Below, piece by piece: positions 5,725 through 41,170 of a stretch of 64,000 bases of DNA (positions are counted from its first letter, which is position 1; each line of letters opens with the position of its first letter). The notes under the pieces are model-generated. The model had not been told where the DNA came from. It ran no database searches and worked only from the letters and a program-made list of their open reading frames with translations. The stretch comes from Acetivibrio saccincola (GTDB taxonomy: Bacteria > Bacillota > Clostridia > Acetivibrionales > Acetivibrionaceae), in contig NZ_CP025197.1 of NCBI RefSeq assembly GCF_002844395.1, positions 1,736,001-1,800,000 of the forward strand. Direction: 5' to 3'. Position numbers and translations under genes: made by a program.

Positions 5725-5873
5725 AAGACATATTGATAAAAAAGTAAAAACAACTTTAAAGAAAAATATAATTTAACTTGAATTCAAAACAAAGTAAAGA
5801 TATGATAAAAGAAGAAAAGTTAATTTAAGAGATGCTGTTTTGGTACTATATTTTGAAGTTTGGAGGAGATGGA

Positions 5874-6335
5874 ATGAAACTTGCAGAAGCACTGATATTA
5901 AGAGCAGATTATCAGAAGAGGCTTGAACAAATCCGGGAAAGATTAATTAGAAACGCTAAAGTTCAGGAAGGAGAAAAACCTTCAGAAAATCCCTATGATT
6001 TATTGAATGAAATGAATGACCTTATAAATAAACTTACTGATATTGTACAAAAAATTAATAGAACTAATTCATTAACTATAGTAGAAAATGGGAAAACCAT
6101 CACGGACTTATTAGCAAAAAGAGATTCAATTTCTCAAAAAAGAAGCATTCTGGAGTCCTTGATAAATGCGACAACAATTAAACTTGACAGGTATAGTAAA
6201 TCAGAAGTGAAATATTTCAGTACAGTAGATGTGGCAAAAATACAAAAAGAAATAGATACGTTGTCTAAGGAATACAGGGAAATTGATACAAAAATTCAGG
6301 AAAACAATTGGAAAATTGAGTTAAAAGAAGATTAA
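5874..6335 (+). CDS. DIP1984-family (DUF6847) protein
   Basis: 153 residues from ATG 5874, chosen because TGGAGGAGATGG lies just before it and the family typically begins MKLAEALILRAD; an upstream start at 5832 has no ribosome site. The sequence is almost wholly helical and charged, with a conserved N-terminal block (QKRLEQIRERL, NAKVQEGE) and a central KINRTNS motif. The molecular function is unknown. From recall, comparative genomics places this family beside RtcB-type RNA ligases, slipins and RlaP nucleotidyltransferases. Here it is followed at once by a tRNA-like RNA element and 1.3 kb later by an RlaP-like gene. It is intact while its upstream neighbours are broken. Confidence 0.8.
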   Translation: MKLAEALILRADYQKRLEQIRERLIRNAKVQEGEKPSENPYDLLNEMNDLINKLTDIVQKINRTNSLTIVENGKTITDLLAKRDSISQKRSILESLINATTIKLDRYSKSEVKYFSTVDVAKIQKEIDTLSKEYREIDTKIQENNWKIELKED

Positions 6336-6336
6336 T

Positions 6337-6468
6337 AGTGAAAGAAAATTTATGGATATAGATGGTAACTGGAACATTAGAAGCGAGTACAACCCGCCTA
6401 CTGGGTAAAGTAGGATGATGGTCAGCGTGAGGGGCCACGCTATGTAGGTTCGACTCCTACTTTTATTG
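6337..6468 (+). ncRNA. Candidate tRNA-like structured RNA (D-arm, middle arm, canonical T-arm)
   Basis: Three consecutive perfect hairpins can be drawn. Arm 1: CCTAC (6397-6401) with GTAGG (6410-6414), loop TGGGTAAA containing GG like a D-loop. Arm 2: AGCGTG (6424-6429) with CACGCT (6436-6441). Arm 3: GTAGG (6444-6448) with CCTAC (6456-6460), loop TTCGACT, a canonical T-loop. A weak 7-bp closing stem with G-U pairs is possible between 6337-6343 and 6461-6467. There is no CCA end, the acceptor stem is poor, and there is a 50-base insert before arm 1, so this is not an ordinary tRNA. Y-RNA-like (YrlA) RNAs of Ro60 systems also mimic tRNA this way. Its boundaries are uncertain. Confidence 0.55.
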
Positions 6469-6532
6469 TTATGCCTTGTAATGTAACAGGGGCACAATTT
6501 ATTGTTAAAGTTACTACCATGTACTGGTCTGA

Positions 6533-7285
6533 TGTTTTAGTGAGGGTGGGAACGGGGATTTAAAAAAAGAAAGAGTTCCTGTATATTCAGCTGAAAAGAA
6601 GTTAAAATCAGGAATAAGTGATGATGGAAGCATTGTAGAGGGGTTTGATGGATTTGTTTTATTAATACTGCTATATGTATTAACAGTTATAAGTTTTGTT
6701 CCAATTTCTAAATTATATATGTCTACAAAATTATTTGGAAACGCAAGTAATATTGCAAAAAAATGGACTGAAATAATTTGCTGTGCATTTGAAAAGGGTG
6801 TATACGACCATAACGTGTATTCAGATACATATAAAAAAATCTATGGCCTACCACCTAAAGGCGGGCGTCTGCTGGATTTTTCAAATTTTTATCAGATTTC
6901 ATTAGTTTCAGATAATTTAGAGGATAAAACTGCTTCAGCGTTAATGGATTACATTTTGCATAAAAAGACAGGTATTTATTATATCTATGACAGACAATTA
7001 TCTATATTGCCGGAAGTGTTTAAATCAAAAGAAGCAAGCAAGTACATTGCGGCTATTGAGCTATTGTCAGAATACAAAAACCCGGGATGCAAAGAAAAGC
7101 TTATGTTTGTAGTTGAATGGCTGAACACTCAAAAGGAAGGTGAGGGATACTGGGATATGGGAACAACTGTGAAAGACGGTGTTAGATTTCCTTTATCTAA
7201 TTCATGGCGTAAAAAAGAATTGAGGGTAAAGGACTGTACATATAGGATATCAAGACTTATGAAAAATTTAGTTATTGATAAATAG
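6533..7285 (+). pseudogene. Headless hypothetical ORF, probably N-terminally truncated
   Basis: The frame is open from 6533 to 7285 but has no start codon before ATG 6719, which lacks a ribosome site. Sequence upstream of that ATG encodes coherent protein including a hydrophobic stretch (FVLLILLYVLTVISFVPIS), so the real gene was longer. From 6719 there are 188 residues. The last third (FVVEWLNTQKEGEGYWDMG and the following PLSNSWRKKE) resembles alpha/alpha-toroid repeats seen in prenyltransferase-like hypothetical proteins. I cannot assign a function. A shortened protein from 6719 might still be made. Confidence 0.45.
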
Positions 7286-7596
7286 TTTTTTGATATGTTT
7301 GTGTCTATTATAAAATGCATAATACATAGTTTTAATTAGGATAAATAGAAATGTTATTTCAACTTGAATATGGAATGAAAGAAATCGTGATATGTAAAGT
7401 AAAGTTAATTTCAGAAAAGCAGTTAAGGCAATTGTCGTAGAAATGGACAGATTATTATGGTAAAATCTAATAAAGGGATTTTGAATTTCCAGATAGCTGG
7501 ATAAGACTTTGTAAAAACCGGCAAAATATATATTTTAAGTTAGAATTTAATTAGAATTTTTACACTATAATAATTTTCATAGGGGTGAGACTTAGG
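7286..7596 (+). other. Intergenic stretch with decayed coding traces
   Basis: About 310 bases between the headless ORF and the nucleotidyltransferase. Between 7410 and 7530 broken frames give protein-like fragments (LRQLS, KWTDYYG, FPDSWIRLCK) separated by stops, suggesting a decayed gene. The last 60 bases must carry the ribosome site of the next gene. No clear promoter. Confidence 0.3.
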
Positions 7597-8367
7597 TTGA
7601 GGGATACAATAATTAAAAAACTTGAAGAAATAGAAAGGGAAAATGACGTTAAGATCCTTTATGCCGTTGAATCCGGCAGCCGGGGCTGGGGATTTGAATC
7701 TCCTGACAGTGATTATGATGTTCGTTTTATTTATATTCATAAACCTGATTGGTATTTGTCAATACAAAGTAGAAAGGATGTTATAGAACTTCCTATTAAT
7801 GATTTGTTGGATATTAACGGTTGGGATATAAGAAAAACATTGGTGCTATTTAGTAAATCAAATCCTACCCTTTTAGAATGGCTGACTTCTTCCATTATTT
7901 ATAAGCAAAGCGGTAATTTTATAGAAGCACTTAAAACATTACAAGAAGAATATTTCAGATCGGCTTCGTGTGTATATCATTATTTGCATATGGCTGAGGG
8001 CAATTATAGGGAATATTTAAAAGGCGATCTTGTAAAATTAAAAAAGTATTTTTATGTGCTTAGGCCAATAATGGCCTGTATGTGGGTAGAAAAATATAAA
8101 ACGCAGCCTCCTATGCTTTTTGAAACACTGCTTAACTCATTGATTACAGATCCTGTTCTTTTAAAAGAGATTAATAATTTACTAAGACAAAAAAGAATAA
8201 GTAAAGAAATGGATGAAGGATATAGAATTGATGTAATAAATGAGTTTTTAGAAGAGAAGATACTCTATTTTAACGAATATGTCAAACAATTAGACAGTGA
8301 TACAAGCAAAAATGTGGAGCATTTAGACAGGTTATTTAGAGAAACATTACAAGAAGTCTGGAGATGA
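7597..8367 (+). CDS. RlaP-like nucleotidyltransferase (PF10127 type)
   Basis: 256 residues from TTG 7597, preferred because AGGGGTGAG lies 7 bases upstream; GTG 7585 in the same frame is the alternative. The N-terminal half is a DNA-polymerase-beta-like nucleotidyltransferase fold with the GSRGWG motif followed by the metal-binding pair in SDSDYDVRF, then a helical C-terminal half. This family (YcgL/RlaP, RNA ligase-associated polymerase) is proposed to add nucleotides to or mark RNA ends in repair systems. Catalytic residues look complete. With DIP1984 and the tRNA-like RNA upstream it suggests an RNA repair or maintenance locus, although no RtcB ligase is in this window. Confidence 0.8.
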   Translation: MRDTIIKKLEEIERENDVKILYAVESGSRGWGFESPDSDYDVRFIYIHKPDWYLSIQSRKDVIELPINDLLDINGWDIRKTLVLFSKSNPTLLEWLTSSIIYKQSGNFIEALKTLQEEYFRSASCVYHYLHMAEGNYREYLKGDLVKLKKYFYVLRPIMACMWVEKYKTQPPMLFETLLNSLITDPVLLKEINNLLRQKRISKEMDEGYRIDVINEFLEEKILYFNEYVKQLDSDTSKNVEHLDRLFRETLQEVWR

Positions 8368-15797: not shown

Positions 15798-15811
15798 AAA
15801 ATGCTATTTAC

Positions 15812-15897
15812 TCTATCCCTACGCTGGTATTATCCAGATCAGGTTATGCGGGTTGCGGAAAACTCCGCTCTCAGCCGGAAAACCAGCACCCCGTGTG
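15812..15897 (-). promoter_or_regulatory. TPP (thi-box) riboswitch
   Basis: Minus strand reads GGGGTGC, GGCTGAGA, ACCTGATCTGGATAATACC and AGCGTAGGGA in the right order and spacing for the TPP aptamer. High thiamine pyrophosphate should favour the terminator immediately downstream and switch off the thiamine-precursor transporter operon. Sequence is conserved; mode of action follows from family knowledge. Confidence 0.95.
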
Positions 15898-16019
15898 TGT
15901 TTATTATTTAATTTTTATTAATAATAGCATAATGGAAAAGTAAATACAAGCTATACAAAGATTATAGTATATTATTTTTATTCAAATGTATTTCTTTAAA
16001 TAAAAATAATTAAAAATAA

Positions 16020-27344: not shown

Positions 27345-27675
27345 CAAAACTTTAATAGCGTTAAAAACGATGAATAGAAGGAGTAGAAAATTATTCTTTT
27401 TAAGAGAGCAGGTGGCTGGTGCGAACCTGTAAAGGTAATTTTCGAAAATCATCTAGGAGTTGCTTTGCCGAAAGAAAGAAATTTCCACTAAGCAAAGCCG
27501 GGTAACCCGTTATGTTAATTGAGTGATTTATTTAATATATAAATCAGGCTATATTCAAATGGCATTAATGCTGCCTTGGTAATAAATGCCGCTGGGTTTA
27601 TATATTAATAAATAAAGTGGGTGGTACCGCGTGAGTTAAAGCTCTCGTCCCTTTTTTCAGGATGAGGGCTTTTTG
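27345..27675 (+). promoter_or_regulatory. T-box leader controlling ileS
   Basis: The conserved T-box TGGGTGGTACCGCG is at 27618-27631. The terminator pairs AAAGCTCTCGTCC (27638-27650) with GGATGAGGGCTTT (27660-27672) and ends in T. A long stem I region begins near 27345 with AGTAGAAAA and contains ATC in the AATCATCTAGG segment, a plausible isoleucine specifier. Uncharged tRNA-Ile should stabilise the antiterminator and raise ileS expression. Confidence 0.92.
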
Positions 27676-41087: not shown

Positions 41088-41170
41088 TGGTGCGGACGGT
41101 GGGACTTGAACCCACATGCTTTCGCATACGCCCCTCAAACGTACGTGTCTGCCAGTTCCACCACGACCGC
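41088..41170 (-). tRNA. tRNA-Leu, anticodon GAG, CCA encoded
   Basis: The minus strand folds as a class II tRNA. The D-arm contains TGGTGGAACTGGCAGACAC; the anticodon stem TACGT/GCGTA encloses loop TTGAGGG (anticodon GAG, reading CUC/CUU). A long variable arm (GCGAAAGC hairpin region) and T-arm GTGGG-TTCAAGT-CCCAC follow, and CCA is encoded at the end. The acceptor stem GCGGTCG/CGTCCGC has one internal U-U mismatch (position 5). Transcribed alone with its own terminator. Confidence 0.95.

Follow-up and report, generated by a model that had tools for sequence, protein, structure and literature searches.

The DNA just 3' of the DIP1984 gene of Acetivibrio saccincola encodes a structured RNA of approximately 197 nt that travels with DIP1984 across several bacterial phyla and phages. 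Its fold consists of a long closing stem, an H-type pseudoknot, a hairpin with a second pseudoknot (PK2), a detachable T-arm and a G-rich tail, and it is not that of a tRNA. With two pseudoknots, an optional tRNA elbow and no match in Rfam 15, this structured class is apparently new. In the window (the whole 64,000-nt stretch of DNA that was analysed), the RNA was located with a covariance model, R1, that was built without the window copy. Positions 6363-6559 of the forward strand are the sole R1 match across these 64 kb (cmsearch; 95 bits, E-value: 3e-26), and the runner-up in the whole genome scores 16.2 bits. The original prediction had placed a dedicated, tRNA-like RNA at 6337-6468. A dedicated structured RNA is indeed encoded here, as the match to an independent model and covariation equalled in 0 of 500 shuffles both indicate. 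Its limits had to be redrawn: the conserved stretch after the DIP1984 stop codon runs far past 6468, and the 3' strands of stems P3 and P2 (6520-6525 and 6529-6541) lie outside the predicted interval. The features of the RNA and its neighbours are collected in Table 1.

Table 1. Features of the DIP1984-associated RNA and neighbouring genes (positions in the window)
Feature	Position	Strand	Basis or remark
DIP1984 family gene (DUF6847)	5874-6335	+	PF20935, E-value: 2.6e-55; NF038048
Structured RNA, whole model match	6363-6559	+	cmsearch with R1
GGUAR box, conserved	6364-6368	+	G7, G8, T9 and A10 near-invariant in alignment A1; also in A2
Closing stem P2, 5' strand	6368-6380	+	13 pairs with 6529-6541; covariation, same pairs in minimum-energy fold
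Stem P3, 5' strand	6386-6391	+	Pairs with 6520-6525; top covarying pairs, minimum-energy fold
H-type pseudoknot, stem 1	CCC 6393-6395 with GGG 6403-6405	+	96.7% paired in A2
H-type pseudoknot, stem 2	CCTAC 6397-6401 with GTAGG 6410-6414	+	Covariation; 6/6 helix pairs in A2 changed on both sides
GG co-occurring with T-loop	6420-6421	+	Co-occurrence among 92 copies; D-loop-like docking inferred
Hairpin P5	6424-6429 with 6436-6441, loop 6430-6435	+	7/7 helix pairs in A2 changed on both sides
PK2, loop strand GGGGC	6431-6435	+	A2 covariation; placed in window by hand from sequence
T-arm GTAGG-TTCGACT-CCTAC, detachable module	6444-6448 with 6456-6460	+	Sequence, A2 structure, comparison of copies
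PK2, downstream strand GCCUU	6473-6477	+	A2 covariation; placed in window by hand
UACUACC box, conserved	6512-6518	+	Alignments A1 and A2
Stem P3, 3' strand	6520-6525	+	Covariation, minimum-energy fold
Closing stem P2, 3' strand	6529-6541	+	Covariation, minimum-energy fold
G-rich 3' tail GAGGGUGGGAACGGGG	6542-6557	+	Conserved in A1 and A2
RlaP nucleotidyltransferase gene, neighbour, not steady partner	7585-8367	+	PF10127, E-value: 1.7e-99

The DIP1984 open reading frame was listed from 5832; the protein alignment A3 places the conserved start (MKLAEAL) at 5874. ARAGORN called no tRNA at the RNA element, and no Rfam 15 family scored at its cut-off, whether in the element or in the 20 loci tested. 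Below the cut-offs, at E-values up to 10, only tRNA and a snoRNA matched between 6200 and 6700, the tRNA model (RF00005) scoring 20.4 bits on the element against a cut-off of 29. The folding energy of the window copy is ordinary (z = -1.27) and alone would not have shown the RNA. Elsewhere in the window, a TPP riboswitch (15798-15903, reverse strand) and a T-box leader (27361-27655, forward strand) score over their Rfam cut-offs, and ARAGORN predicts a tRNA-Leu(gag) at 41088-41170.

The minimum-energy fold of the window copy contains P2, P3, stem 2 of the first pseudoknot, P5 and the T-arm. All three arms that had been read from the sequence (6397-6414, 6424-6441 and 6444-6460) are in place on the forward strand between the DIP1984 and RlaP genes, two of them with a changed identity. 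The pairs of the supposed D-like arm exist as the second stem of the H-type pseudoknot, and the GG linked to the T-loop is found at 6420-6421 instead. The middle arm is a hairpin, as proposed, whose GGGGC loop can in addition pair with GCCTT at 6473-6477. This PK2 helix is 99.2% paired in A2, where three of its four pairs changed on both sides; two of the five pairs in the window copy are G-U.

Most relatives carry, in the DNA after the DIP1984 stop codon, GGTAR early, UACUACC later and GAGGG-Y-GGG-NNN-GGGG at the end. The G-rich tail pattern has one match in the window and none in 100 shuffles, and the tail is possibly a protein site or part of a G-quadruplex. It is absent from Acinetobacter/Psychrobacter copies (L082, L083 and L085) and from the similar copies L147 and L148; the folds of all five contain P2 and P3, though R1 missed some of them. 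Among eight outlying copies that were folded, L165 and L168 have no closing stem in the minimum-energy fold. The GGUAR and UACUACC boxes are strongly conserved and mutually complementary. A pairing between them was considered and rejected, because it must cross the closing stem and because copies such as L006, L027 and L055 do not keep the complementarity. The T-arm and the following T-run, listed as terminator-like, were likewise rejected as an intrinsic terminator: covarying stems continue to 6541, and transcription must therefore read through.

The RNA family and its fold are established by comparison of copies. Alignment A2 comprises 33 rows and excludes the window; in it, 90.3% of cells are paired (72.7% when shuffled) under a 41-pair structure that includes both pseudoknots, and sliding this structure by one to three columns gives 36.7-48.3%. 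A covariance search and compensatory changes had been named as the check on the prediction, and both turned out in favour of a structured RNA: 34 of the 41 pairs changed on both sides, in 277 cells compared with 97 in shuffled alignments, a count that none of 500 shuffles reached. The A2 rows were hand-picked for easy alignment, which favours these statistics, and independent searches were made with R1 for this reason.

Covariation was also scored in 71 aligned copies, a set without L001 (a near-copy of the window locus) and without 24 divergent copies; nor did it at any stage include some others, among them L035, L036, L039, L056, L057, L091, L097, L100, L107 and L108. The null was obtained by re-dealing substitutions along a FastTree tree (40 null alignments; our own R-scape-like script, which gives rough E-values). 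Ten pairs beat every null score, and all of them lie in P2, P3, stem 2 of the first pseudoknot or P5. No pair of stem 1 of that pseudoknot changed on both sides in A2. Its best pair in the 71 copies is U-A in 51, C-G in 12 and A-U in one (64/71; rough E-value: 0.05). As pairs outside the helices stand at the next rank (38-56 and 51-56, rough E-values: 0.025 and 0.05; 38-53, 0.225), this best pair is unproved by the 71-copy test alone. Alignment A5 is 92.3% paired with 31 of 32 pairs changed on both sides, the latter equalled by 19 of 500 shuffles; A5 was fitted to the model, so that its counts lean towards the structure.

Relatives were collected by a DIP1984 protein scan of 84,980 species genomes, which gave 97 relatives, with 80 loci kept. 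R1 was made from the 33 A2 rows, and these 33 seeds match it by construction. With four loci added, R1 matches 46 of the 47 non-seed loci of the 80 kept, L004 reaching only an E-value of 0.39. Against 69 loci, including the window's own (L081), 64 match at an E-value of 1 or below, in 66 rows that include second rows of L056 and L061. The copies missed by R1 are L004, L082, L083, L107, L108, L148 and L167, and weak matches are given by L086, L096, L099, L165, L166, L168 and L180. The RNA and DIP1984 occur together on Actinomycetota plasmids (five loci, two of them near-identical; E-values: 1e-18 to 1e-10) and in Picosynechococcus (L084, E-value: 2.5e-9). Enterococcus copies match weakly (L086, E-value: 0.017; L168, E-value: 0.0035).

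The RNA is constantly paired with DIP1984. Of 92 aligned copies, 89 share the strand of DIP1984 and begin 4-102 nt past the end of its match. The distance is 313 nt in L164 and 532 nt in L163, and the remaining copy is a second one in L056, located upstream. In L056 the two copies (1895-2092 and 2592-2794) flank DIP1984, and the upstream one follows a PARG-like gene. Among 299 genomes of the window's phylum, DIP1984 is over its cut-off in 18 (20 at an E-value of 1e-3) and the RNA matches at an E-value of 0.01 in 19; this search scored eight candidates per genome, so RNAs elsewhere could be missed. In 16 of the 18 genomes the strict search finds the RNA beside the gene, in four of these at E-values of 0.001-0.008 only. 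The remaining two, G145 and G223, are matched at their own loci (L100, E-value: 3.1e-7; L096, E-value: 0.0027). Three genome matches (model positions 32-106, E-values: 0.007-0.009) are partial and lie apart from DIP1984; for these two reasons they were taken for tRNA-like chance matches, and four of the 16 accepted matches (those at 0.001-0.008) score no better than these. No RNA match was obtained in the two of 20 genomes with DIP1984 below the cut-off. DIP1984 is rarer in Pseudomonadota samples, being over the cut-off in 3/299 and 2/321 genomes, with sub-cut-off hits (2 of 5 and 11 of 13, respectively) left aside.

The predicted structure of the DIP1984 protein (pLDDT 93.3) has four long helices. 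Its sole stand-out fold match is 3kdq (E-value: 7e-10; Z 15.9, rmsd 1.6 over 151 residues), the next other entry having an E-value of 0.73. 3kdq is DIP1984 of Corynebacterium diphtheriae, a member of the same family, deposited as functionally unknown under a title that names no RNA. No fold relative that would hint at tRNA binding stood out besides 3kdq, an absence that is not evidence in itself. QEGE, N62, N65, R135, Q142, N145 and W146 are invariant among 36 DIP1984 proteins. The gene occurs in 371 plasmid records, of which 342 are from Acinetobacter; on Acinetobacter plasmids (e.g. H31, H49 and H85) it is sometimes annotated as septicolysin, at odds with its family. Among the literature matches listed, there was no paper on an RNA beside DIP1984.

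Gene context was assessed by single-protein tblastn, by which distant relatives could be missed, on 150 locus records besides the window; some of these overlap, some hold sub-threshold DIP1984 only, and their flanks are mostly 3 kb or less. The RlaP protein of the window has no hit in these 150 records, one of which (L134) spans 12.5 kb around a close relative of the DIP1984-RNA unit; in L001, the near-copy of the window locus, too little downstream sequence is included to show whether RlaP is present. RlaP, to which the original prediction had tied the RNA as one of the adjacent RNA-end enzymes, was therefore rejected as a steady partner; the steady partner is DIP1984. Other repair-type genes are found in few records: KptA in two (L052 and L080, upstream), a PARG-like gene in ten, mostly labelled Ruminococcus, and RtcB with RtcA in one (L083; RtcA by annotation). 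As the majority of the 150 records contain none of the five repair-type genes sought, the link to repair rests on few lineages. In L143 and L144, genes resembling those of type III CRISPR lie near a divergent DIP1984-RNA unit.

The rtc genes were found with DIP1984 in Acinetobacter. In L083, ribonuclease Z (rbn) is followed by RtcB, by a hypothetical gene and by DIP1984 and then, past a gap of approximately 260 nt, by rtcA; no rtcR is in view. L167 has the same gene order with rtcR divergent upstream, and in both loci the RNA occupies the gap between DIP1984 and rtcA. By megablast, the whole rtcB-rtcA/DIP1984 operon was found in one plasmid record only. The hypothetical gene of L083 (1849-2496) encodes a 216-aa protein without a Pfam match. 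The L167 record (CAKLQH020000004.1) is labelled Acinetobacter phage MD-2021a; its content, with rtcR, rtcB, pepD and aroA, resembles that of a bacterial chromosome rather than of a phage. In A. baumannii AB0057 exposed to tigecycline, rtcB and the hypothetical gene next downstream were the two most induced genes by RNA-seq (252-fold), according to the available part of that study, which mentions neither DIP1984 nor the RNA (PMC7652931).

DIP1984 and the RNA are also present together in five IMG/VR viral contigs. R1 matches two of them strongly (L164, E-value: 6e-12; L163, 5e-7) and three weakly (L180, 1.7e-4; L165, 5e-4, a short match; L166, 0.012, with the boxes present in its sequence). In three of the five, the pair lies inside a tRNA array, with 7 tRNA genes in L164, 23 in L165 and 19 in L166, the latter two sets within 8.5 kb; L163 and L180 are not in arrays. 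A tRNA gene starts 7 nt after the RNA in L164, where the order is DIP1984, RNA, tRNA-Met and RtcB, and 25 nt after it in L165. L166 has a band-7 gene (E-value: 2.5e-5) approximately 1.5 kb beyond the unit. Phages often carry RtcB and band-7 genes (637 and 162 of 50,697 records, respectively), so chance may have contributed to the context of L164 and L166. L163 contains a second weak RNA match at 5798-5985. The window DIP1984 protein matched no viral contig, and the L164 and L165 proteins matched only themselves. A pattern scan of the viral contigs gave 11 stretches, two with a DIP1984 hit (L176, which is the L165 contig, and L180) and nine without. Three phage regions without annotated DIP1984 (two with band-7, two with RtcB) gave nothing above 14.1 bits, mostly tRNA T-arms; two of the regions come from phages with tRNA arrays, namely Bongo (RtcB and band-7) and Samisti12 (band-7).

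The resemblance to tRNA that had been predicted applies to one module. The T-loop is present in 51 of 92 aligned copies, 50 of which have GG within 9 nt before P5; it is missing in the other 41, of which 14 have this GG (Fisher p = 5.6e-12; second-best dinucleotide, 0.0011). These counts replace those of a rule that missed T-loops touching the hairpin (33/33 versus 31/59), and cruder T-loop rules gave 42/43 versus 15/38. A tree of DIP1984 from 90 loci has 17 changes of the T-loop and 22 of the GG, with 11 changes on the same branch and in the same direction compared with approximately two expected by chance. Such joint gain and loss is what docking like that of a D-loop with a T-loop would give, and mimicry of the tRNA elbow is thereby supported at the level of sequence. 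The T-arm module is optional, so the core of the RNA is something other than tRNA mimicry. Identity with tRNA or tmRNA was rejected, given the missing ARAGORN call and the sub-cut-off RF00005 score. With these molecules the RNA has in common a T-arm with a TTCGA-type loop and the co-occurring GG. The acceptor stem, CCA and D-arm of tRNA are absent, the apparent D-arm being a pseudoknot stem; the lack of CCA had been noted correctly, and the weak acceptor stem described with it has no counterpart among the covarying pairs listed.

The model proposed for the RNA is the following. It would most likely assemble with DIP1984 into a ribonucleoprotein, in which the long closing stem enclosing the two pseudoknots could form a rigid core. 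In many lineages the T-arm would dock with the GG to create a surface like the tRNA elbow. The particle may serve the response to damage of tRNA (or other RNA). What it holds or presents could be damaged tRNA, or else enzymes that handle tRNA, the ligase RtcB for example, in a role similar to that proposed for Ro60 with YrlA or Y RNA. We infer the binding of the RNA by DIP1984, its action in trans and its role in repair or quality control from how constantly the two are paired, together with the elbow, the rtc operon and the position inside tRNA arrays of viral contigs. That the two form a ribonucleoprotein for tRNA repair or quality control that acts like Ro60-Y RNA seems to us an evenly balanced proposition. 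The broader idea, that an undescribed class of particle (DIP1984, a double-pseudoknot RNA and a detachable elbow) takes the place of Ro60-Y RNA in some bacteria and phages, handles damaged tRNA and is carried by phages in tRNA arrays against tRNA-cutting defences, is somewhat more tentative.

Other roles can be imagined for the RNA. It might be a cis-acting element of the 3' UTR, a structure at the end of the DIP1984 mRNA that the DIP1984 protein binds, thereby regulating how stable this message is or how strongly downstream sequence is expressed. The position shortly past DIP1984 on the same strand in 89 of 92 copies would suit such an element; the gaps of 313 nt (L164) and 532 nt (L163), the extra upstream copy in L056 and the tRNA genes that follow after 7 nt (L164) and 25 nt (L165), as they would follow a gene of a tRNA array, make it unlikely. 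A decoy, in which the tRNA-like RNA would sequester anticodon nucleases or other enzymes that attack tRNA, would explain the position in viral tRNA arrays and agree with the elbow mimicry, and a comparable idea is raised for YrlA in PMC7790460. However, the loop at the anticodon position is engaged in PK2 and the T-arm is optional, and we regard a decoy as distinctly unlikely.

Type III antitoxin RNAs are pseudoknotted, as is this RNA, and DIP1984 is frequent in plasmid records (the 371 above, 342 from Acinetobacter). Both facts are consistent with a stability module of mobile elements such as a type III-like RNA-antitoxin pair. The RNA is, however, usually a single copy located 3' of the protein gene, the window protein has no PADLOC match, and only its own family stands out in the fold search; a stability module is accordingly quite improbable. 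The first suggestion made for the RNA, that of a substrate or guide for the neighbouring RlaP, draws on their adjacency in the window and is very improbable in view of the 150 other locus records, L134 among them, in which no RlaP was found.

Under the favoured reading, as a DIP1984 ribonucleoprotein, a widespread protein of unknown function gains both a specific partner RNA and a role that can be tested, and the viral tRNA-array position makes a link to tRNA-targeting defence testable as well. Among the known families whose features could be tested to the end, the DIP1984 RNA belongs to none. A type III toxin-antitoxin system would be expected to carry RNA repeats in tandem, upstream of the gene for a ToxN-like nuclease; here, one copy usually follows the gene. 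Burroughs and Aravind reportedly described, in NAR in 2016, a novel tRNA-like molecule of SPFH/Band-7 RNA-repair modules. It resembles the DIP1984 RNA in being a tRNA-like RNA tied to repair, and L166 has a band-7 gene close to the unit; in contrast, the band-7 regions of Bongo and Samisti12 give no R1 match above 14.1 bits. Identity of the two RNAs is possible, if rather doubtful. Were they identical, the RNA would not be new in print, and the two-pseudoknot fold and the pairing with DIP1984 may still be.

The closest comparison is with Ro60/Rsr and Y RNA/YrlA (rsr-yrlBA-rtcBA), an analogy drawn in the original prediction. In Salmonella, Rsr and Y RNAs are encoded in one operon with rtcBA, and rtcR is divergent (PMC7790460). 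The likeness holds as far as a protein and a structured RNA with a tRNA-like part lie beside rtcB, rtcA and a divergent rtcR in Acinetobacter (rtcB-hypothetical gene-DIP1984-RNA-rtcA). One viral contig, L164, also has RtcB close to the pair. The likeness does not extend to the components: DIP1984 matches PF20935 only and has 3kdq as its lone fold match, its RNA has two pseudoknots and a long closing stem, and rtc genes are usually not nearby. No Ro60 is annotated in the Acinetobacter stretch (L167), and no test made identifies the DIP1984-RNA pair as a relative of Ro60-Y RNA. The pair may offer a second, apparently unrelated answer to the puzzle posed by Ro60-Y RNA, namely what a tRNA-like non-coding RNA is doing in RNA-repair operons.
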